32,180 bases of DNA from an uncultured bacterium. Lineage in GTDB: Bacteria > Bacillota_I > Bacilli_A > Acholeplasmatales > Anaeroplasmataceae. Positions 7,429 to 32,180 of the stretch are shown here, piece by piece. A model generated the notes under the pieces. It did not search any database, was not told the origin of the DNA, and was given only the letters and a program-made list of their open reading frames with translations. Each line of letters begins with the position of its first letter. Positions within the stretch are counted from its first letter, which is position 1. The translations under genes and the position numbers were made by a program. The stretch is taken from NCBI GenBank assembly GCA_949293265.1, contig CASFCK010000018.1, forward strand, positions 1-32,180. The letters run 5' to 3'.

Positions 7429-8291
7429 TGGAAAATACAGTTAAACAATATAAAAGAAGAATAATAAATCCTCAAAAAATATTTGGTGCAGTATTAAGCT
7501 ACTTAATTTTAGCCGCTGTAGCATTTATCTTTTTCTTTCCAATATTATGGTTAGTTCTTGCTTCATTTAGTAAGCAAGGTGATATGTATTCATTTGATGG
7601 TTTCTTTCCTACTGAATATGGTTTTGATTCATTTGTAAAATTATTTACTGATACAGATACTTATAATTATCCAAAATGGTTTTTAAATACACTTCTAATT
7701 TCATCAGTAAGCTGTGTATTTGGAACATTCTTAACAATATTAACTGCTTATGCTATGTCTAGATTAAAATTCAAATCACGTAAGCATTTAATGAAATTAA
7801 CGTTAATTTTAGGTATGTTCCCATCATTCATGGGTATGGTTGCCGTATATTTACTTTGTACACAATTGAACTTATTAAATAGTCATTGGGGATTAATTTT
7901 AATCTATACTGGTGGTGCACCTATGAGTTATATGGTACAAAAAGGGTTCTTTGACACTATACCTTATGAAATAGATGAGTGCGCTATGATGCATGGTGCT
8001 AATAGATTCCAAATTTTTATGAAAATAAACTTACCGGTAGCAACACCGATGATTGTATATAGTGGTTTAACTAGTTTTGCTTTCCCATGGAGCGATATTA
8101 TCCTTCCTCAAATGTTACTAAAGAATCGTGATATGTGGACAGTAGCAGTAGGTTTAAATAACTTAACTCAACAAGAATTTACGCGTTTTGCCGCAGGTAG
8201 TATTTTCATTGCCGTACCAATTATCATTTTATACTTTGTTTTATCTAAGTTTATGATTAGTGGTATGTCAGCAGGTTCAGTAAAAGGTTAA
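7428..8291 (+). CDS. malG: Maltodextrin ABC transporter permease MalG
   Basis: Second permease of the maltodextrin importer, with about six membrane segments. The MetI-type EAA loop, IDECAMMHGANRFQIFMKINLP near residues 183-204, would dock onto the ATPase. The start overlaps the malF stop (TAATG), and AGGAGG lies 13 bases upstream inside malF. The length of 287 residues is normal for MalG/UgpE proteins. Confidence 0.92.
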   Translation: MENTVKQYKRRIINPQKIFGAVLSYLILAAVAFIFFFPILWLVLASFSKQGDMYSFDGFFPTEYGFDSFVKLFTDTDTYNYPKWFLNTLLISSVSCVFGTFLTILTAYAMSRLKFKSRKHLMKLTLILGMFPSFMGMVAVYLLCTQLNLLNSHWGLILIYTGGAPMSYMVQKGFFDTIPYEIDECAMMHGANRFQIFMKINLPVATPMIVYSGLTSFAFPWSDIILPQMLLKNRDMWTVAVGLNNLTQQEFTRFAAGSIFIAVPIIILYFVLSKFMISGMSAGSVKG

Positions 8292-24487: not shown

Positions 24488-24561
24488 GGCCCTGTAGCCA
24501 AGTGGTAAGGCACGGCACTGCAACTGCCTGATCATGAGTTCGAATCTCTTCGGGGCCTCCA
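24488..24561 (+). tRNA. tRNA-Cys (anticodon GCA), CCA encoded
   Basis: The cloverleaf folds with acceptor GGCCCTG/CGGGGCC, D-loop AGTGGTAAG, an anticodon loop CTGCAAC that gives GCA, T-arm GAGTTCGAATCTC, discriminator U and encoded CCA. U73 and the GCA anticodon are cysteine identity elements. It marks the left border of an accessory region, as tRNA genes often do. Confidence 0.95.
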
Positions 24562-24821
24562 TATTCGTACAACATGTCTGATACAAACTTAGTCGATGAC
24601 TAGGGGTGTGCAGACTTTTTTCATTTTTAGTCTTAAATAGCCACTTTTTAAAATTATGCCGTTGTAATAGTGAAAGGCAAATTCTCTAAAATTTGCTAAA
24701 AAACCATCAGTTTTAGGGCTCACTTTGAAACGACAGGTGTGCACTATTACACGGCAACCCTCATTTTGCACACCCCTAAACACGGCAACTGCACACCCTA
24801 TCTTTATTAATAACATTGATT
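24562..24821. other. Non-coding spacer after tRNA-Cys with dense inverted repeats
   Basis: No credible gene. The stretch between the tRNA and the terminator at 24822 would be transcribed with the tRNA unless processed. It contains the MITE-like element 24601-24778 and a further partial copy of its right end (ACACGGCAACTGCACACCC, 24781-24798). It may hold a structured RNA. Confidence 0.6.
24601..24778. mobile_element. MITE-like nested inverted repeat with TA ends
   Basis: The ends TAGGGGTGTGCA (24601-24612) and TGCACACCCCTA (24767-24778) are perfect 12-base inverted repeats that begin and end in TA. Inside are a second inverted pair (24657-24672 with 24742-24756, one bulge) and a third (24677-24683 with 24690-24696). 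It has no coding capacity. A short non-autonomous transposable element with a TA target would look like this, but a structured RNA is an alternative. Confidence 0.5.
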
Positions 24822-24858
24822 GACCATCTGGTTCTTATTGGACTGGGTGGTCTTTTTT
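24822..24858 (+). terminator. Strong intrinsic terminator
   Basis: A 13-base-pair stem (24822-24834 with 24840-24852, including several G-U pairs) has a 5-base loop and a T6 tail. It probably ends the tRNA-Cys transcript about 260 bases after the tRNA and insulates the following gene. Confidence 0.85.
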
Positions 24859-24895
24859 GTTTGCCTAAGATATGGAAAAATAGGCGGTTTTTAGT

Positions 24896-24914
24896 TATAA
24901 TTATCTTAGCTAAG
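24896..24914 (+). promoter_or_regulatory. Promoter -10 and palindrome before the AlbA_2 gene
   Basis: TATAAT (24896-24901) is followed by the palindrome CTTAGCTAAG (24905-24914) at the expected transcription start, about 20 bases before the coding start. No clear -35 is seen. The arrangement matches 15680-15706. Confidence 0.5.
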
Positions 24915-24933
24915 AAAGCAGGTGTTTTTTATA

Positions 24934-26277
24934 ATGAAATATGAAGAAAGCGATAGAGTAGAACTTAAGCGAGAAATGATAAAAGATTTGGATAAAGAAA
25001 TCATCGCTTTTTTGAACGCACATGGTGGAACAATTTATATTGGTGTTGATGATAATGGAAATGTAGTAGGAATACCTGATGAAAACAAAGATATCTATGA
25101 TCAAAAACTATCATCTATGGTAACAGAGGGAATTAAACCTAGTGCTAAACAACTTGTTACTTTCGGATACAATAGTGATAACGTTCTATTTATTAATGTA
25201 AATGAAGGAACTAAAAAACCTTATTATCTTGCTTCAACCGGTCCTAAACCTAGCGGTACCTACATTCGTGTTGGAAGATGTAAACAACAATTAAGTGATG
25301 AAGAAATTCTTTTTATGCTTATGGATAGCATGAGGATGTCTTTTGAGAAAGAAATTTCTGAAAATCAAAACCTTCATTTCACATACGCTGTTGAACTTGC
25401 CAAATCTAAAAATATTGATTTTAGTGAAAGAGAATGGCTGGCTTTAGGACTAAAAAATAGACATGATGACTTTACAAATTTAGGTTTATTGGTTAGTGAT
25501 GAAAATCCAATTGAAGTAAAGTTTGCATCATATGATGAAAATTTGAATTTTAAAATGAAAAAGATTTTTTCTGGTTCCATTTTAAAGATAGCTGATCAAA
25601 CGCTTGAATATGCTAATTTACTTAATACAACATCAGCTGTAATTGTCCCTTATCAAGCACAAAGAATAGAGACTAAATCATATCCTGGAGTAAGTTTAAG
25701 AGAAGCAATTTTAAACGCTATTTGTCACGCTAATTATTTGAAACCATCTAATATTAAAATCGAGTTTTATGATGATAGAGTAGAGATTACAAGTCCGGGA
25801 GGAATATTAGATGGTACATTAGAAGAGATATTGAGTGGATATCAAACTTTTAGAAACCCAGGATTAGTTCGAGTATTAGATAAATTTGACTATATTGAAA
25901 ATTTTGGTAAAGGTATGAAAAGAATCCAAGAGGCTTATGAAAATAGTGATAAAAAGCCATCGTTTGATGTAAATAATACATATTTTAGAATCATCTTGCC
26001 AGATTTAAATTTCCACCATAGTTCCACCATTAGTTCTACTAATAATTCCACCATTGATTCCACTATTCGACTTTCGGAAACGCAAGTAGCAATTCTCACA
26101 TTAATTAAAGAAAACAAATATATTACAACAAACGAAATATCAGATAAGTTGAGTAAAGAATTATCTACTATTAAAAAATCAATTAAAGTTTTGAAAGATG
26201 CTGGCATACTCGCAAGAATTGGCACTAATAGAACTGGCTACTGGGAAATCTTAGAATCGAAAGAAGATTTTAATTAA
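24934..26277 (+). CDS. AlbA_2 (Schlafen-like) / HATPase_c_4 domain protein, RecG-like regulator type
   Basis: Residues 1-110 form an AlbA_2 putative nucleic-acid-binding domain (ESDRVELKREM, then EIIAFLNAHGGTIYIGVDDNGNVVGI). Residues about 225-350 contain the GHKL-type ATPase region of this family (YPGVSLREAILNAICHANY, ITSPGGILDG, GLVRVLDKFDYIENFGKGMKRI). A Ser/Thr-rich linker near 360-380 leads to a C-terminal winged helix (ETQVAILTLIKENKYITTNE). Such proteins are often called transcriptional regulators or RecG-like, and many lie in accessory islands. AGGTG precedes the ATG at 24934; GTG at 24922 is less likely. It overlaps the next gene by one base. Confidence 0.85.
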   Translation: MKYEESDRVELKREMIKDLDKEIIAFLNAHGGTIYIGVDDNGNVVGIPDENKDIYDQKLSSMVTEGIKPSAKQLVTFGYNSDNVLFINVNEGTKKPYYLASTGPKPSGTYIRVGRCKQQLSDEEILFMLMDSMRMSFEKEISENQNLHFTYAVELAKSKNIDFSEREWLALGLKNRHDDFTNLGLLVSDENPIEVKFASYDENLNFKMKKIFSGSILKIADQTLEYANLLNTTSAVIVPYQAQRIETKSYPGVSLREAILNAICHANYLKPSNIKIEFYDDRVEITSPGGILDGTLEEILSGYQTFRNPGLVRVLDKFDYIENFGKGMKRIQEAYENSDKKPSFDVNNTYFRIILPDLNFHHSSTISSTNNSTIDSTIRLSETQVAILTLIKENKYITTNEISDKLSKELSTIKKSIKVLKDAGILARIGTNRTGYWEILESKEDFN

Positions 26278-26636
26278 TGGATATTGATATTCTTAAAGGG
26301 TTAATAGGAAAAGAAATTGATGTTACCATTGATCGACCTATAGGAACAACTCATCCGAAATATAAAGATATGATATATTTAGTTAATTATGGTTATATTG
26401 ATGGCTTTTATGGCGGAGATAACGAATATCAAGATGTGTATATTTTAGGTGAAGACAAGCCGTTAAGTAACTATCGTGGTAAAGTTATTGCAATAGTACA
26501 TCGTTTGAATGATAACGAAGATAAATTAGTTGTTCATAACTATGGATATTTATCAAGTAATGAGATAGAAGAAGCAATTAATTTTCAAGAAAAGTATTTT
26601 AAACATGAGATTATTACTATAAATAGTTCAAAATGA
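26277..26636 (+). CDS. Short inorganic-pyrophosphatase-like protein
   Basis: Resembles a small group annotated as inorganic pyrophosphatase: DRPIGTTHPKYKDMIYLVNYGY, then GGDNEYQDVYILGEDKPL and GKVIAIVHRLNDNEDKLVV. The acidic residues in the DxxED-like stretches could bind Mg, but the 119-residue chain is shorter than soluble PPases (about 170) and activity is unproven. The start is fused to the upstream stop (TAATG), so it is co-translated with the AlbA_2 gene. This makes a two-gene unit between the tRNA terminator and the repeat at 26681. Confidence 0.75.
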   Translation: MDIDILKGLIGKEIDVTIDRPIGTTHPKYKDMIYLVNYGYIDGFYGGDNEYQDVYILGEDKPLSNYRGKVIAIVHRLNDNEDKLVVHNYGYLSSNEIEEAINFQEKYFKHEIITINSSK

Positions 26637-26680
26637 TTAATTAATGAAAAATTGATAAGTTGCCTTTGTTGTCGTTGTAA

Positions 26681-26825
26681 GGGTGTGCAATGTATCAAAA
26701 GCGTAGTAGGGAGGCATATTGAAAGCATAGGTTTGATACGCTAGAAATAGCTAATCAAGCCTTTTTTTGAGCCAAAATTAGCAAAATTTAGCAGTTATTT
26801 AACATAAATTGAGCATAAGCGACTT
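26681..26825 (+). repeat. Structured repeat, copy A
   Basis: About 100 bases (26724-26825) match copy B (28878-28980) at roughly nine positions in ten by eye. The shared upstream edge is GGGTGTGCAA-TGTATCAAA. The conserved part contains the hairpin at 26730-26768 and about 55 more bases beyond the T-tract, so conservation is not limited to the terminator-like hairpin. Confidence 0.75.
26730..26768 (+). terminator. Hairpin with GAAA tetraloop and T7 tract (copy A)
   Basis: GGTTTGAT pairs with ATCAAGCC. An internal loop follows, then GCTA-GAAA-TAGC, and after the hairpin seven T. This can terminate the AlbA_2/PPase transcript. GTATCAAA at 26692-26699 could pair with TTTGATAC (26732-26739) instead and break the terminator stem. 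Confidence 0.65.
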
Positions 26826-26874
26826 ACCATCCTATTCTCTAACAATGAAGTTTTAGCTCGTGGTTTTGCACTAA

Positions 26875-26931
26875 AAACTTTTTATAGCACAATAAACTTT
26901 TTGTCCCACAAAAAACTTTTTATCAATTTAC
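26875..26931. repeat. Three 19-base tandem repeats beginning AAACTTTTT
   Basis: AAACTTTTT occurs at 26875, 26894 and 26913, an exact 19-base period. The following bases are partly conserved (ATAGCACAAT, GTCCCACAAA, ATCAATTTAC). It could be a protein-binding array. Confidence 0.55.
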
Positions 26932-27345
26932 GCTGAAAATAGTAATAAAAATAAGTTCTTATATTAAAAATGCTTTAAAACCATGAAATTTTACTAAATT
27001 GTATTTAAATATAAACATTTGATACTTGCAGAACTCTTAATATTAGTGACCTTAGAAAATTTAGAAATTTATTTTTATTATAAGAGGATGTTTTCGCAGT
27101 TTTACATTAAGCGATTTATGGATAAAGCAATGCTTTTGTAAGAAACTATGTTTTAATTTTAGAGTTTGAAAAGCAATTAATGTTCTAAATAATGGTGTGA
27201 GCATTTTGCAGTCAAGTTAAAATCGACACTTTAGGAATGGTTTTTGGATATGATTTATGCTATATTTATTATAGTTAGTGAACGCATATGATGAAAAAAT
27301 GCAGAATAATAATACTTAAAACTGCAAGGTAAGGGAGGCTTTATT

Positions 27346-28572
27346 ATGAAAAAGAAACTGCTTGCGTTAATAACTGCTGCAATGAGCGTTGTTTTTATGT
27401 TCTCTTTTACGGCTTGTAACGGCGGTAACGAAACCACGGACGGGAGCGGCACGCATACGCATACCTATTCGGAGCAATGGTCACATAACGAAACAGAGCA
27501 TTGGCACGCCTGCACGGGCGCGGACTGTGACGAGGTAACGGACAAAGCCGCGCATACTTGGGATAATGGCACGATTACCATGGCGCCGACCTGCACGGCA
27601 AAGGGCGAAAAGACCTATACTTGTACGGTGTGCAATGCGACAAAAATGGAAGAAGTCGCAACAACCGAACACACCTTTTCGGATGAATGGAAAAACGATG
27701 AAACCCACCATTGGCACAAGTGCGAAAATTGCGACGAGATAGACGGCAAAGCGGAACATGAATATAATGCGGACGGTGTTTGCGTGTGCGGTTATGAGAC
27801 TATACCCGAAGAAACTCCTCCGACTACTTTGGAAGAGCTTATGCAGGAGGGTAACGAAAAGTATCAGGCAATCGTTGTAAAAACATTGAACGACCATTTG
27901 CTCGAAGATATGCTATACAAAACACTTGGCAATTACAATCTAAATAGCGTTCAAATTGAACAATGGGAAGTCGTTGATAGCGATAAAAACGGTATTATCG
28001 ATTGCATAAAACTACATTTCTTCTACGATAACGCAATAATTTCGATGCTTTACAGAATATCTTGCGTTGAACCTAAAACGGAAATAACTTTACAGGATTT
28101 GTTAACCGAAAGCCCTGACGCCACAAAACTTGACGAAGCATTCGACAGAGGAACTCCTTATGTCAACGGCGCCAAATATTTTACTGAATATGCTTTTGGT
28201 TATGACCCTACAATACAAGAGATGCGAAAAAGATTGTTAAATGCGGTCAATGAGAAACTTGCTACTGAAGGCTTGATTTCTGCGGTTGACGAGAATACCC
28301 GTTCATTTATTATAAGGGACTATGAATCGACGGAAGATACAACATTAGGTAAGACAAAACGAATAGTAGTTATGAATTTAACAGAGAACAGCTATGAAGA
28401 AATTACCATATTAATTAAAGAAGCAGAAAAAAACAATGACGATACAAAACTGATAGAAAACTTAAATGCGGGCCAATATAAAGTTTTAAATGATGTAAAA
28501 CGTGGTAAATTTACGGGCACACTTCTAAAAGGCGATATATCCGAAACTGGCGGTAAGGCAACAACGGATTAA
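27346..28572 (+). CDS. Cys/His-rich lipoprotein with HWHxC repeats, compositionally mosaic
   Basis: Signal peptide with lipobox FTAC (Cys24). Residues about 38-155 contain two related units with the pattern HWHxC...C: TEHWHACTGADCDEV and THHWHKCENCDEIDG, separated by CTAKGEKTYTCTVCNATK and followed by VCVCGYE. They look like metal-binding or disulfide-bonded surface modules seen in clostridial lipoproteins. The remaining 250 residues are not recognised. Base composition is unlike the neighbours: 35 of 60 bases are G/C at 27481-27540, but only 17 of 60 at 28381-28440, so the 5' part looks recently acquired. GGGAGG precedes the start. Confidence 0.75.
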   Translation: MKKKLLALITAAMSVVFMFSFTACNGGNETTDGSGTHTHTYSEQWSHNETEHWHACTGADCDEVTDKAAHTWDNGTITMAPTCTAKGEKTYTCTVCNATKMEEVATTEHTFSDEWKNDETHHWHKCENCDEIDGKAEHEYNADGVCVCGYETIPEETPPTTLEELMQEGNEKYQAIVVKTLNDHLLEDMLYKTLGNYNLNSVQIEQWEVVDSDKNGIIDCIKLHFFYDNAIISMLYRISCVEPKTEITLQDLLTESPDATKLDEAFDRGTPYVNGAKYFTEYAFGYDPTIQEMRKRLLNAVNEKLATEGLISAVDENTRSFIIRDYESTEDTTLGKTKRIVVMNLTENSYEEITILIKEAEKNNDDTKLIENLNAGQYKVLNDVKRGKFTGTLLKGDISETGGKATTD

Positions 28573-28647
28573 GCCACCGAATGTAGTTAAAAGACAAAGA
28601 CTAAAACGAAGAAAACTAAATAGCAAAATTAAGGCGTTCACGTATAG

Positions 28648-28665
28648 AAGCGTTAGCGCTTTTTT
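28648..28665 (+). terminator. Short intrinsic terminator after the lipoprotein gene
   Basis: AAGCG-TTAG-CGCTT forms a 5-base-pair stem followed by a T-run. It is weak but correctly placed. Confidence 0.5.
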
Positions 28666-28793
28666 ATGTCCTTCGAAAAAGTCGCATTATTAAAGCCTGC
28701 AGTCATCCCGTGCGAATTTTGTAAAATTCAACCTTTTCAAAATTCAATCGGGGCATAACACTAAAATATGTGATAAATCCTCAACTTTATATA

Positions 28794-28843
28794 GGGGTCG
28801 CAAAGTTGTTAAAGGGGTTGCAATTTATAACTAGGGGTTGCAA
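28794..28843 (+). repeat. Iteron-like triple repeat GGGGTYGCAA, 20-base period
   Basis: GGGGTCGCAA at 28794, GGGGTTGCAA at 28814 and GGGGTTGCAA at 28834 are spaced by exactly 20 bases, about two helical turns. The third unit is the left edge of repeat copy B. A protein could bind all three on one face of the DNA. Confidence 0.65.
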
Positions 28844-28980
28844 CTGTATCAAAATACGTAATTCATTTCATATAAGAAGCATAGGTTTGATACGCTAGAA
28901 ATAGCAAATCAAAACCTTTTTTTGTGTCAAAATTAGCAAAATATAGCGGTAATTTAACATAAATTGAACATAAGTGACTT
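28834..28980 (+). repeat. Structured repeat, copy B
   Basis: Second copy of the element at 26681-26825, same orientation. The core 28878-28980 differs from copy A by about nine substitutions and one extra A. GTATCAAA (28846-28853) and TTTGATAC (28886-28893) are 40 bases apart in both copies, although the sequence between them differs for about 24 bases. Confidence 0.75.
28884..28923 (+). terminator. Hairpin with GAAA tetraloop and T7 tract (copy B)
   Basis: GGTTTGAT pairs with ATCAAAACC with one bulged A, then GCTA-GAAA-TAGC and a T7 tract. Where copy A has a G-U pair, copy B has A-U, so the fold is kept despite sequence change. Confidence 0.6.
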
Positions 28981-29063
28981 TTTTGAAAAAATCCTGTAAA
29001 AGTTCTATGAAAATATCGAAATTATATTACACTAGGATAAACGCATGAAATAGGCCCAAAAAC

Positions 29064-29112
29064 ATAGCATACTACAAACTAAGCTGAAAAACTTAGGTAG
29101 TATGCTATTTTT
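29064..29112. terminator. Bidirectional terminator at the IS left end
   Basis: ATAGCATACTAC (29064-29075) pairs with GTAGTATGCTAT (29097-29108). A second stem, CTAAG/CTTAG, lies in the loop, and A/T runs lie on both sides. It ends the transposase transcript and also blocks outside transcription entering the element. Confidence 0.8.
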
Positions 29113-30414
29113 ATTGCTTGTTATCACTTTTAAATAAAGTGTTAAGATCTAATCCTTCTAAGAAAACAAATAATCTAATAAGATTTTTCTCGTAATTACT
29201 TCTAAACGACTTAAGAGTTCGCATTTTAGAACCATTTCTAAACATAGGAGCTATTAAAACTAATAATGAATTAACCATTTTTCTTAAAATGGAGAAGTTA
29301 TTATTAGCAACTTTGTTCATAGTTCTATTAGCATCCTCATGGAAGAAAGCATCTAAAGGATAATGAAGTTGATTTTCAATAGACCAATGGCCTCTAATAG
29401 CTAAAGCAATAAGATTAGTATCTTTTAAATCAGATATAAAATAACGATATTCACAAGAATTTTTACCAGATAAAGTGTGATAAATTTTTTTCTTATAACA
29501 AACAATAGACTTAAGATTAAGCCAATCATCTTGTTGATAGAAAGAGTCAGCATCAACGCGAAAGAATTCTCTAGTTTCAACTTGATTATGATTCTTTTCA
29601 ATCTCCATTTTATAATAATCTTTAGTATCTTTAATAGAATCTAATTTATCTTTAAAATGAGATTCAATATCTTGATGAAATTCACTATGATTACCTTTAA
29701 TAGCTAAAACATAATGACCTTTACCATTAATAATAACTTCAACAGTTTTCTTTTGACAGTTCATCGCATCAGCAGTAACAATTTTATTTTTAATATCTAA
29801 AGTAGGTAGTATTTGTTGAGCAATAGGAATTTCATTTGTTTTCTCACTAATAACTACACTTTTAATACATTGTTGATTAGAAACATCAAAAAAATGCATA
29901 AGCTGACAATTAGGCACCTTGTCTTCGTAGTTATATTTTCTGCCACTTAACCTTAAGGCTTTACTATCAATAGCTAAATGGTCAAAGTCTTCAGAATTTT
30001 TCTCTATATTCTCTTTTACAACTTTATTAATACATTCAGACAAGAAAGAAACTATTACTTTTTCAAGACTTTCATTATTAATTTTAGCAAATACTCTCAT
30101 ATATGTATCATGTACAGGCAGCGTATCGGGATACTCAATAAACTTAGATAAGAAATCTTTTTTATCTTCAGCAAAATCAGCTATTTCCTGCCAAGTCTCT
30201 CTAATATCTAAAATAGCTAAAAACGTGATAACTACAATAAATTTTGTTGAGTATTTACATTTAGCTTTGATTCTAGAATCAACTACACCATCAAATGATG
30301 AATAAATTCTCTAAGTTTTTGACCATCATCTAAAAGAATTTTCATTACTAAAAGGGGTTCTTGTTTATTAAACTTATCTTTATATTTTTGAACATTTTGA
30401 TTAATTTTGGCCAT
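29111..30414 (-). pseudogene. ISAs1-family transposase, frameshifted
   Basis: DDE transposase of the ISAs1 family. The intact part (start codon 30100) has AIDSKALRLS (first Asp), VTADAMNCQKKTVE (second Asp), YVLAIKGNHSEF, VETREFFRV, IRGHWSIENQLHYPLDAFFHED (Glu). Upstream in another frame lie the missing family N-terminus (YSSFDGVVDSRIKAK, TWQEIADFAEDKKDF, LPVHDTYMRVF) and, in the first frame, MAKINQNVQKYKDKF to KLREF. One missing base near 30304-30309 moves the reading to a TAG at 30283-30285. Adding one T there restores a protein of about 434 residues. No classical slippery heptamer is present, so a mutation is favoured over programmed frameshifting. Confidence 0.85.
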
Positions 30415-31015
30415 AACACTTTACCTCGAATCCAAAAGTATTAAATATTTGATATACATCATTATCACATTGTGATAAGTAATAACGTTTATTTATATAA
30501 ACAAGTTTTAAAGTAGATAATATTTTTTCAATATTATTAATATTAGAGCACTTACTATATTCTGTTTCAATCATTTTACATACTCTATCAGTCTCAGATA
30601 AAGTTAATTTATAATTAGCTAATTTATCATCATAGTTGGGATACAATAATTTAAGAGCAGTATAATAAATAAGATTATTAGATATATTAAAAGTACGAGA
30701 AATAGCTAATACCATTATAGTATCGGCATATTTCTTGTGGGTTCTAATTTGACCATTGTAGATATTTTTTAATAAATTGAATAAGAATAGATAAAAACCA
30801 TATTCATATACTAAAATATCTGAATTAATTAGACCCTTTGAAGGAATAAGACCATCTTTTTCAGTGATAGTTCCTAAATATTCATCAACAATTCTGACAT
30901 ATTTACCATTTCTATACTCACAATGGCCTTTATAAAGTCTATAATGATCTTTATATTTATTTAGATAATGTCCTGGTTTTTTATATTTTAAGACCCAATC
31001 TGGGTAATTAGCCAT
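30401..31015 (-). CDS. IS-encoded accessory ORF, N-terminal-transposase-like (205 aa)
   Basis: First gene inside the IS. The N-terminus MANYPDWVLKYKKPGHYLNK, then HYRLYKGHCEYRNGKYVRIVDEYLGTITEKDGLIP, resembles the N-terminal DNA-binding-type region of IS4/IS1634-like transposases, including the YLGxI(T)EKDG motif. No DDE residues follow. It could recognise the ends or regulate the transposase; this is inference. The start at 31015 has AAAGGGG eight bases upstream. Its stop overlaps the transposase start by 14 bases, so the two are coupled. Confidence 0.65.
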   Translation of the reverse strand: MANYPDWVLKYKKPGHYLNKYKDHYRLYKGHCEYRNGKYVRIVDEYLGTITEKDGLIPSKGLINSDILVYEYGFYLFLFNLLKNIYNGQIRTHKKYADTIMVLAISRTFNISNNLIYYTALKLLYPNYDDKLANYKLTLSETDRVCKMIETEYSKCSNINNIEKILSTLKLVYINKRYYLSQCDNDVYQIFNTFGFEVKCYGQN

Positions 31016-31029
31016 AGAAATCGCCCCTT

Positions 31030-31054
31030 TATTACACATGTGTAATATATTATA
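31030..31054 (-). promoter_or_regulatory. IS promoter and 18-base palindrome
   Basis: On the minus strand TGGTATAAT is an extended -10 (TATAAT at 31049-31054). The perfect palindrome TATTACACATGTGTAATA (31030-31047) lies at the expected transcription start. It would serve as an operator or a 5' hairpin limiting transposase expression. Confidence 0.6.
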
Positions 31055-31139
31055 CCATAAAAAATAAGGTAATTAAACCTTTAAATTTATAAATCAATGG
31101 TGATTTCGTGCGTTTATCCTAAAATGGTTATTATAATAA

Positions 31140-31168
31140 TTGACCATTTTTTTTGCTCATGTTATAAT
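31140..31168 (+). promoter_or_regulatory. Promoter of the surface protein gene
   Basis: TTGACC (31140-31145), a 17-base spacer and TATAAT (31163-31168) with TG extension are close to consensus. It lies 18 bases outside the IS right end, so the IS did not interrupt it. Confidence 0.8.
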
Positions 31169-31185
31169 GAAAAAAAGGAGGAATT

Positions 31186-32180
31186 ATGAGCCAAATAAAT
31201 GATAAAGACCTAAATGAATTTAATAATTTTTACATTGAAGAAGTTATTAAAAGCAAGGAATCTGCACACGAAACTGGCGAATATAATGAAATTAAGATTT
31301 TGAATGGGCTTATTTCTAATACTGCAGAGGAAGAAGACTCTAGCTCAGATGAAGAATCAACCTCTAAAATAGTAGCGATAGGAACCACAGTTGGAATGAC
31401 TGTTGGAATTGGAGGAATAGTAATTGGAGCAATTGCTAGTATTACTCTTTCTTTAAATTTTTTAGCTGTTCAAAGTAAAGTCGGAATTACTCAAGCTCAA
31501 TGTTTCTTTGAATTAACGAATGCCAATTATGATGAAGTAGATATTCAACTAGAAGATACAAACGGAGATAAAATACAACTTGCAGATTTAGAACCTACTG
31601 ATATAAAAAACCAGTATGTTGCTGAGTTTAACCATTTATCACCAAATTCCACTTACTTTTTAAAAGGATTAGATGATGGTAAAGAAATTGATTTAGGCGA
31701 AAATGATTACTTTAAAACATTACCAGTTCCAAGGTATGACATTGAAATTGATTTAAACAAGTATGATAAAGATAATGAAGAGTATAACGTATCTTTTAAA
31801 ATCGATAATCCGCATGAATATTTAATAGAAGCGATTCTTATATGTGAAAACGACAAGACGTTTAATCAATTTGCCGAATCAAGTAATGGGATTTTTGATT
31901 TCACTTTACCTCCTATCTTATTTAATTATCGACTAGAACTTTATCAAGAAGGCTATTTAGTCGGGGAAAGACCATTTGATTATTATGAAGGTATTGAAAT
32001 TATAGATGAATCGCTTGAAATAGGTATTTCTTCTATTGATATGGCTTTAAGTGTAGGCGATGTTGATCCAAATGATATGGATATTTCAATTATTAATAAT
32101 GATAATCCAGAAGAAGTTATTCCTCTTGAAGTAGCTTTAGATGGATATCTATATGTCAGTTACTACGAACTCGAACCTGA
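31186..32180 (+). CDS. Membrane-anchored protein with fibronectin-III-like domains (3' end outside window)
   Basis: An open frame runs from ATG 31186 to the window end without a stop (331 codons). AGGAGG lies just upstream. Residues 1-60 are polar and acidic with no signal peptide (EEEDSSSDEES near 48-57). Residues about 62-93 form one Gly-rich membrane segment (TVGMTVGIGGIVIGAIAS). From about 105 on, beta-rich repeats resemble FN3 domains (CFFELTN... DLEPTDI... LSPNSTYFLKGL... YFKTLP). This suggests a cytoplasmic N-terminus and an extracellular adhesion- or sensor-like C-terminus. The family was not identified. Confidence 0.75.
   Translation, partial: MSQINDKDLNEFNNFYIEEVIKSKESAHETGEYNEIKILNGLISNTAEEEDSSSDEESTSKIVAIGTTVGMTVGIGGIVIGAIASITLSLNFLAVQSKVGITQAQCFFELTNANYDEVDIQLEDTNGDKIQLADLEPTDIKNQYVAEFNHLSPNSTYFLKGLDDGKEIDLGENDYFKTLPVPRYDIEIDLNKYDKDNEEYNVSFKIDNPHEYLIEAILICENDKTFNQFAESSNGIFDFTLPPILFNYRLELYQEGYLVGERPFDYYEGIEIIDESLEIGISSIDMALSVGDVDPNDMDISIINNDNPEEVIPLEVALDGYLYVSYYELEP

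Follow-up and report, generated by a model that had tools for sequence, protein, structure and literature searches.

Mobile cassettes stacked behind tRNA genes in Acholeplasmatales and their probable link to a phage-encoded pair of serine recombinases

The window considered here, a 32,180-nucleotide stretch of the genome of an uncultured bacterium of the Anaeroplasmataceae, contains an array of the order tRNA-Cys, AlbA/Schlafen cassette, lipoprotein cassette and third element (Table 1). The right end of element 1 has diverged from the consensus and retains only a single recognisable box, and its geometry is exact. The initial annotation had described a foreign-looking gene flanked by two structured repeats; this is the lipoprotein gene, which is the cargo of the element 2 cassette and has a homologue in G036 (64% aa, 84% nt) that adjoins the same left-end segment. 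Element 3 has been split by an insertion sequence that encodes a DDE_Tnp_1 transposase on the minus strand (29111-30100; Pfam), and no right end was found between its left end and the contig end. The insertion sequence itself spans 29060-30100, with a strong hairpin on its 3' side. Elsewhere in the same genome, the sequence 3' of a tRNA-Gly gene (G000:C7, ~66683) matches the left end of element 1 (24562 onward) at 88% identity across 258 nt, and the tRNA-Cys and tRNA-Gly genes that precede this shared end differ from each other.

Table 1. Parts of the array in the window, with the evidence for each
Feature	Position	Strand	Evidence
tRNA-Cys (GCA), docking gene	24488..24561	+	ARAGORN, Rfam; final CA (24560-24561) is the crossover dinucleotide
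Element 1 left half-site, TATTCGTACAACATGTC-TGATAC, degenerate	24562..24584	+	CCA-N17-TGATAC geometry; copy behind tRNA-Gly
Element 1 left-end terminator hairpin, GTCTG...CAGAC TTTTTT	24576..24621	+	Sequence; repeated in tRNA-Gly copy
Element 1 (cassette)	24562..26714	+	Ends as defined by half-sites; Pfam for cargo
AlbA_2/HATPase_c_4 (Schlafen-like) gene, element 1	24922-26277		Pfam
119-aa inorganic-pyrophosphatase-like gene, element 1	26277-26636		Pfam
Element 1 right end: box AGGGTGTGCA (26680-26689) and half-site GTATCA-N17 (26692-26714)	26680..26714	+	
Junction 1 crossover dinucleotide CA	26715..26716	+	CA in 58/62 pattern-found left ends
Element 2 left half-site, TATTGAAAGCATAGGTT-TGATAC	26717..26739	+	PWM, 41.8 bits
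Element 2 left-end terminator hairpin and T7	26730..26768	+	Fold; covariation across 118 left ends
Element 2 (cassette) with lipoprotein gene 27346-28572	26717..28868	+	ORF
Element 2 right-end box array AGGGGTCGCAA, AGGGGTTGCAA, AGGGGTTGCAA, 20-bp spacing	28793..28843	+	Sequence
Element 2 right half-site GTATCA-N17	28846..28868	+	PWM, 20.4 bits
Junction 2 crossover dinucleotide CA	28869..28870	+	CA in 58/62 pattern-found left ends
Element 3 left half-site, TATAAGAAGCATAGGTT-TGATAC	28871..28893	+	PWM, 39.5 bits
Element 3 left-end terminator hairpin and T7	28884..28923	+	Fold
Element 3, incomplete	28871..32180	+	Left end 96% identical to G031 over 136 nt

The two repeats lie in the same orientation (26715-26825 and 28869-28980; 88% identity over 111 nt) and share a hairpin, GGTTTGAT / GCTA-GAAA-TAGC / ATCAA..CC followed by T7, which is the minimum-energy fold in both copies. 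Their co-orientation, common hairpin and T-tract had thus been correctly recognised in the initial annotation, as had the gap of exactly 40 bases from the start of GTATCAAA to the start of TTTGATAC (26692 to 26732 and 28846 to 28886). This constant spacing follows from the layout of a recombination site with two half-sites and not from RNA folding. The copies themselves are real, but the boundaries given to them earlier do not hold, since the bases 5' of each CA dinucleotide belong to the preceding element. Likewise, the suggestion of a mobile cassette stands, but its ends are not simple direct repeats: each repeat is a composite, in which an element's right end is joined to the left end of its following neighbour. 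The repeats in the window are DNA junctions between consecutive mobile elements rather than an RNA switch. A resemblance of the GCTA-GAAA-TAGC stem to that of an sgRNA, noted by eye, had raised the idea of a CRISPR/tracrRNA, which was dropped as the copies are tRNA-linked recombination sites. Beyond the T-tract, the genus-specific left end (26799-26825 and 28954-28980) reads ATTTAACATAAATTGA.CATAAG.GACTT and resembles a Xer/dif arm (TTATGTTAAAT reversed). Direct repeats of CACNAAAAACTTTTTAT are found near the left end of element 2 (26868-26924) and at L030 1651-1709, and across 59 nt this region is 98% identical to an element of G034 that is docked at tRNA-Gly.

A search for further copies in the host order recovered the core GAAAGCATAGGTTTGATA (18 core bases, with at most two mismatches) in 75 of 160 genomes of Acholeplasmatales, at 1-6 copies per genome. 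The same pattern reversed, used as a control, gave nearly no matches in the 160 genomes, and hence the repeats represent more than chance similarity. The strict core occurs only twice in the window's own genome, and a degenerate third site lies in the window at 24562, directly 3' of tRNA-Cys. A scan of named genomes yielded 23 full junctions, nearly all from Acholeplasmataceae, Izimaplasma and related Tenericutes genomes or MAGs, including CP076021.1 and the plasmid CP017949.1.

The full junction, as seen at internal positions in arrays, is a symmetric 48-bp site of the form GTATCA-N17-CA-N17-TGATAC, in which GTATCA-N17 forms the right end of an element, N17-TGATAC the left end of its following neighbour, and the two meet at a shared CA. 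This dinucleotide is present in 58 of 62 left ends found by pattern and also in the CCA of the tRNAs. We gathered 122 distinct left ends across Acholeplasmatales, of which 50 lie exactly at a tRNA CCA, with the TGATAC half-site always 17 nt later and always in the direction of the tRNA. The docked tRNAs are of nine types, namely Ser, Leu, Gly, Cys, Glu, Phe, Trp, Arg and Thr. The remaining copies are internal junctions, where the core is mostly preceded by two or three direct repeats (AGGGGTGY..) and then GTATCA-N17-CA; these boxes recur about 20-21 bp apart, form arrays upstream of most internal junctions and are also found inverted near the left end in the phage genome PV036447.1 and in element 1. 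Internal junctions follow each other at 0.3-10 kb and point the same way, and many of these series lie behind a tRNA. The CA is the only sequence shared between tRNA and element site, and right ends have no tRNA fragment at the junction. About 110-140 bp 5' of some right ends we also observed an inverted copy of the half-site together with a tRNA T-arm-like GGGTTCGATACCC (L071 1777-1803, L340 2777-2803, L070 17610-17636 and L072 14324-14350).

Comparison of relatives revealed both occupied and empty loci. At one tRNA-Gly locus, whose upstream region is ~90% conserved, a left end follows straight after the CCA in six relatives, and unrelated native terminators are found in most others; at the tRNA-Cys locus, some relatives carry an element left end right after the CCA and the others unrelated sequence with a native terminator. 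In the G078 array a native-like terminator stands directly after the CA of the last right end. The cargo between junctions is unrelated from copy to copy, and includes a CadA-like P-type ATPase with an ArsR regulator and LspA, as well as MMPL, GNAT, HTH and methyltransferase genes, with viral-contig copies carrying type I and IIG restriction-modification and Hachiman systems. The element family accounts for part of the variable gene content of Acholeplasmatales, such as restriction-modification, Hachiman and metal ATPases. The Hachiman genes hamA and hamB (L336 3540-7600 and L230 2341-6405) lie in the left part of a prophage docked at tRNA-Leu and of a viral-contig element docked at tRNA-Gly, respectively.

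Most of the elements are small cassettes without a recombinase. Autonomous members of the family are temperate phages whose genomes encode two large serine recombinases in tandem, about 440 and 530 aa long; in L229 this pair shows Resolvase, Recombinase and Zn-ribbon domains (Pfam), and in G078 it matches the PHROG integrase phrog_95. The full order of tRNA-Leu, left end, prophage, recombinase pair and right end is seen in G078 and G069, and the G078 prophage has head, tail and tape-measure genes. The complete genome of Anaeroplasmataceae phage NatCom_34063 (PV036447.1, Ca. Heliusvirales) likewise encodes the recombinase pair, followed by three boxes and a right half-site, its last bases, GTATTAAAATAGTTGTGTAAATACA, being GTATTA-N17-CA and its first bases CACCA-N17-TGATAC, followed by a terminator hairpin. 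It thus shares with the window cassettes the boxes and both ends, and the recombinase pair adjoins its right end; it differs from them in being a complete phage. Three extra bases (CAC) precede its CA, and its attachment site is unannotated in the record. An AP2-domain protein is encoded between the recombinase pair and the right end of the phage contig L229 (685-1314). A conserved small coding stretch (..SIKKGNLYRL..) just 5' of the first recombinase gene is a candidate directionality factor (L379 9740-9766, L380 907-933, L381 993-1019 and L208 11119-11145).

In a tree of 62 recombinase proteins, all loci with a same-strand element end downstream fell into one ~525-aa clade. Element ends were present downstream of 13 of the 18 loci of this clade against 0 of 13 loci of other recombinases (p = 4e-5), where the loci were chosen by us, first by pair size, the clade was defined afterwards by the tree and three of the 13 positives (G069, G078 and G077) were scored from neighbouring stretches. 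Two of the five clade loci without an end downstream are on 6-kb contigs. The notion that all serine recombinases are equally linked to the ends was discarded, as the ~550-580-aa pairs have ends nearby at 0 of 13 loci. Recombinase relics of the same clade are found inside cassettes, mostly close to the left end. Across genomes, left ends and recombinases co-occur moderately (47/75 vs 23/85, p = 7e-6; p = 0.013 upon leaving out a reduced-genome genus). Related recombinases in viral contigs are mostly without these ends, and a search of viral contigs with the right-end pattern gave no match. G058 bears elements and has no large serine recombinase; likewise, the window's own genome (97% complete) has no match to PF07508, and hence its cassettes could either depend on outside enzymes or be relics.

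The site anatomy, tRNA linkage, arrays, occupied and empty loci and phages with the same ends are direct observations, and from these we infer both an enzyme and a mode of strand exchange: the repeats are very probably the attachment-site junctions of integrative elements that dock at tRNA 3' CCA ends by means of a phage serine recombinase pair. The domain set of these enzymes, the shared 2-bp CA and the ~50-bp attP with two symmetric half-sites are traits of elements mobilised by large serine recombinases. In the proposed mechanism, the phage-encoded tandem recombinases would recombine the attP, GTATCA-N17-CA-N17-TGATAC, with the tRNA end at the CA of its CCA. Because this crossover would fall within the last two bases of the tRNA, the tRNA would stay intact, and the former downstream sequence with its native terminator would be displaced to the far side of the element. 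Repeated rounds would stack elements behind one tRNA, re-forming an attP-like site between neighbours, and the cassettes that lack a recombinase are probably moved in trans by the phage enzymes.

The left half-site (..GGTTTGATAC) also appears to double as the 5' arm of a predicted intrinsic terminator. A T-tract is present 3' of 118 of the 122 left ends. In 95 of these 118, at least nine of ten half-site positions pair with the stretch preceding the T-tract, compared to two upon shuffling. The pair types in the stem vary on both sides (T-A, T-G and C-G; G-C, G-T and A-T), so that the preservation of pairing through compensatory changes, first noted for the two window copies, extends across the 118 left ends. 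Because of this pairing, the half-site would be used twice, as DNA in recombination and as RNA in the terminator. On insertion, the hairpin would replace the terminator displaced from the tRNA, with the new left half-site supplying the 5' arm through which the tRNA regains a terminator.

As for target recognition, the near-invariant tRNA bases upstream of the junction in the docked set are those of the T-loop and the CCA. Counted from the CA, T55-C56-R57-A58 of these tRNAs occupy positions -20 to -17, which read TCAA in both attP half-sites. This match tentatively suggests that the serine recombinase pair recognises the T-loop, a universal feature of tRNAs, as one half of its target, which may be how one system uses many tRNAs. 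If this were true, almost any tRNA gene would be a dock for integron-like cassette arrays moved by phages in trans.

Other explanations have been weighed against docking by serine recombinases. The initial annotation had first suggested an attenuator or riboswitch-like RNA with mutually exclusive hairpins, in which GTATCAAA pairs with TTTGATAC, competes with the terminator and thereby controls the downstream gene. The complementarity of the arms, their constant spacing and the predicted, covarying terminator hairpin are all compatible with such a switch, but 50 of the 122 left ends, those directly 3' of a tRNA, lack the arm and retain the terminator hairpin; because of this absence, antitermination is not a general function of the arm. 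Moreover, the arm is the right end of whichever element precedes and its position tracks the recombination site, the downstream genes are unrelated between copies and only the tRNA-Cys in the window matched Rfam 15 above the gathering score. An attenuator is therefore very unlikely. Spread of a conserved family of tRNA terminators by ordinary recombination, with no mobile element involved, would account for left ends that are good intrinsic terminators directly after tRNAs. It leaves unexplained why right half-sites keep the exact CA geometry, why arrays carry diverse cargo, why relatives have empty sites and why phage genomes end at the same sites, and is hardly credible.

Somewhat less improbable, though still unlikely, is integration by a tyrosine recombinase in an integron-like or lambda-like manner with the AGGGGTGY boxes as arm-type sites. 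Tyrosine recombinases are encoded in 149 of the 160 genomes, the box arrays look like arm sites and the arrays of elements resemble integron cassettes. Against this, the identity between tRNA and element, limited to CA, is too short for the usual tyrosine overlap, the far end has no tRNA fragment, a locally built profile detected only one tyrosine recombinase in cassette-bearing stretches (at L084), and G078, a complete genome with many elements, has only two Xer-like full-length tyrosine recombinases and a fragment. Finally, a Tn7-like transposon that targets sites downstream of tRNA genes would be in keeping with boxes that recur close to one end and with a constant distance between tRNA and insertion point. 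However, the TnsB-type Mu-transpos_C domain, on which a CAST was likewise discounted, is present in only three of the 160 genomes, and terminal TGT/ACA ends and a 5-bp duplication were not seen; we consider the chance of such an origin negligible.

Docking by a serine recombinase pair places the present family beside several known systems. Integron arrays consist of co-oriented cassettes separated by recombination sites, with the enzyme acting in trans. The present arrays have the same single orientation and sites between cassettes, and probably an enzyme in trans, but they differ in their symmetric double-strand half-sites around CA and in their tRNA gene dock; no tyrosine recombinase is common to the cassettes, as judged by the locally built profile, and the site geometry differs. 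Staphylococcal cassette chromosome (SCC) elements (ccrAB) stack, and like the present family they have a large serine recombinase pair, a central dinucleotide, a fixed dock at a gene 3' end, cassettes without their own recombinase, and restriction and resistance cargo. Their dock is the 3' end of rlmH, whereas that of the present family is the CCA end of many tRNA genes; the latter is further distinguished by the dinucleotide CA in place of the GA of ccrAB (PMC10581047), by autonomous forms that are tailed prophages and by a half-site that doubles as a predicted terminator. The ssrA islands of Dehalococcoides, of which 15 have no integration module, lie in tandem at a tRNA-like gene and are associated with the Ccr-like serine recombinase pair DsiA/DsiB; they insert in the T-loop of the tmRNA, with a 20-bp ssrA repeat left at their distal side (PMC3146451). 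They resemble the present family in enzyme type and stacking; in contrast, the crossover here would lie in the CCA, there is no duplicated tRNA fragment and the docks are of at least nine tRNA types. Tyrosine-integrase islands of the Islander type also dock at tRNA 3' ends and form tandem arrays, and they restore the split tRNA gene and leave a tRNA fragment (PMC4383910); this distal 3' fragment is absent here.

Known serine integrases mostly use one site per genome. They were described in 2014 as not known to target tRNA genes (PMC4383910), and we found no later report of this in the open literature, though one may exist elsewhere. Likewise, no paper on the present system was found in the open literature, subscription papers being outside our coverage. 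Here one site family uses at least nine tRNA types with integron-like stacking, the tRNA being left intact and its terminator being replaced by the element's own predicted half-site hairpin. The system opens the question of how a recombinase uses a conserved tRNA feature as its target, and could yield integrases whose landing site is nearly universal.

Two further sets of loci lie outside the family as counted here. A second group of serine recombinase pairs (mostly ~550-580 aa), without these left and right ends, is situated 0.25-1.2 kb from, and convergent with, tRNA 3' ends (Cys, Ser, Arg) at L211 7672-11466, L383 1887-5144, L391 8863-12665, L394 3701-7445 and L395 8518-13111, and is possibly an independent tRNA-docking family. 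The gut phage contig L320 carries three AGGGGGTGCA boxes together with TTGTATCAAAA next to serine recombinase genes (7646-7760); it lacks the CA geometry, was left out of the counts for that reason, and is a possible distant relative.
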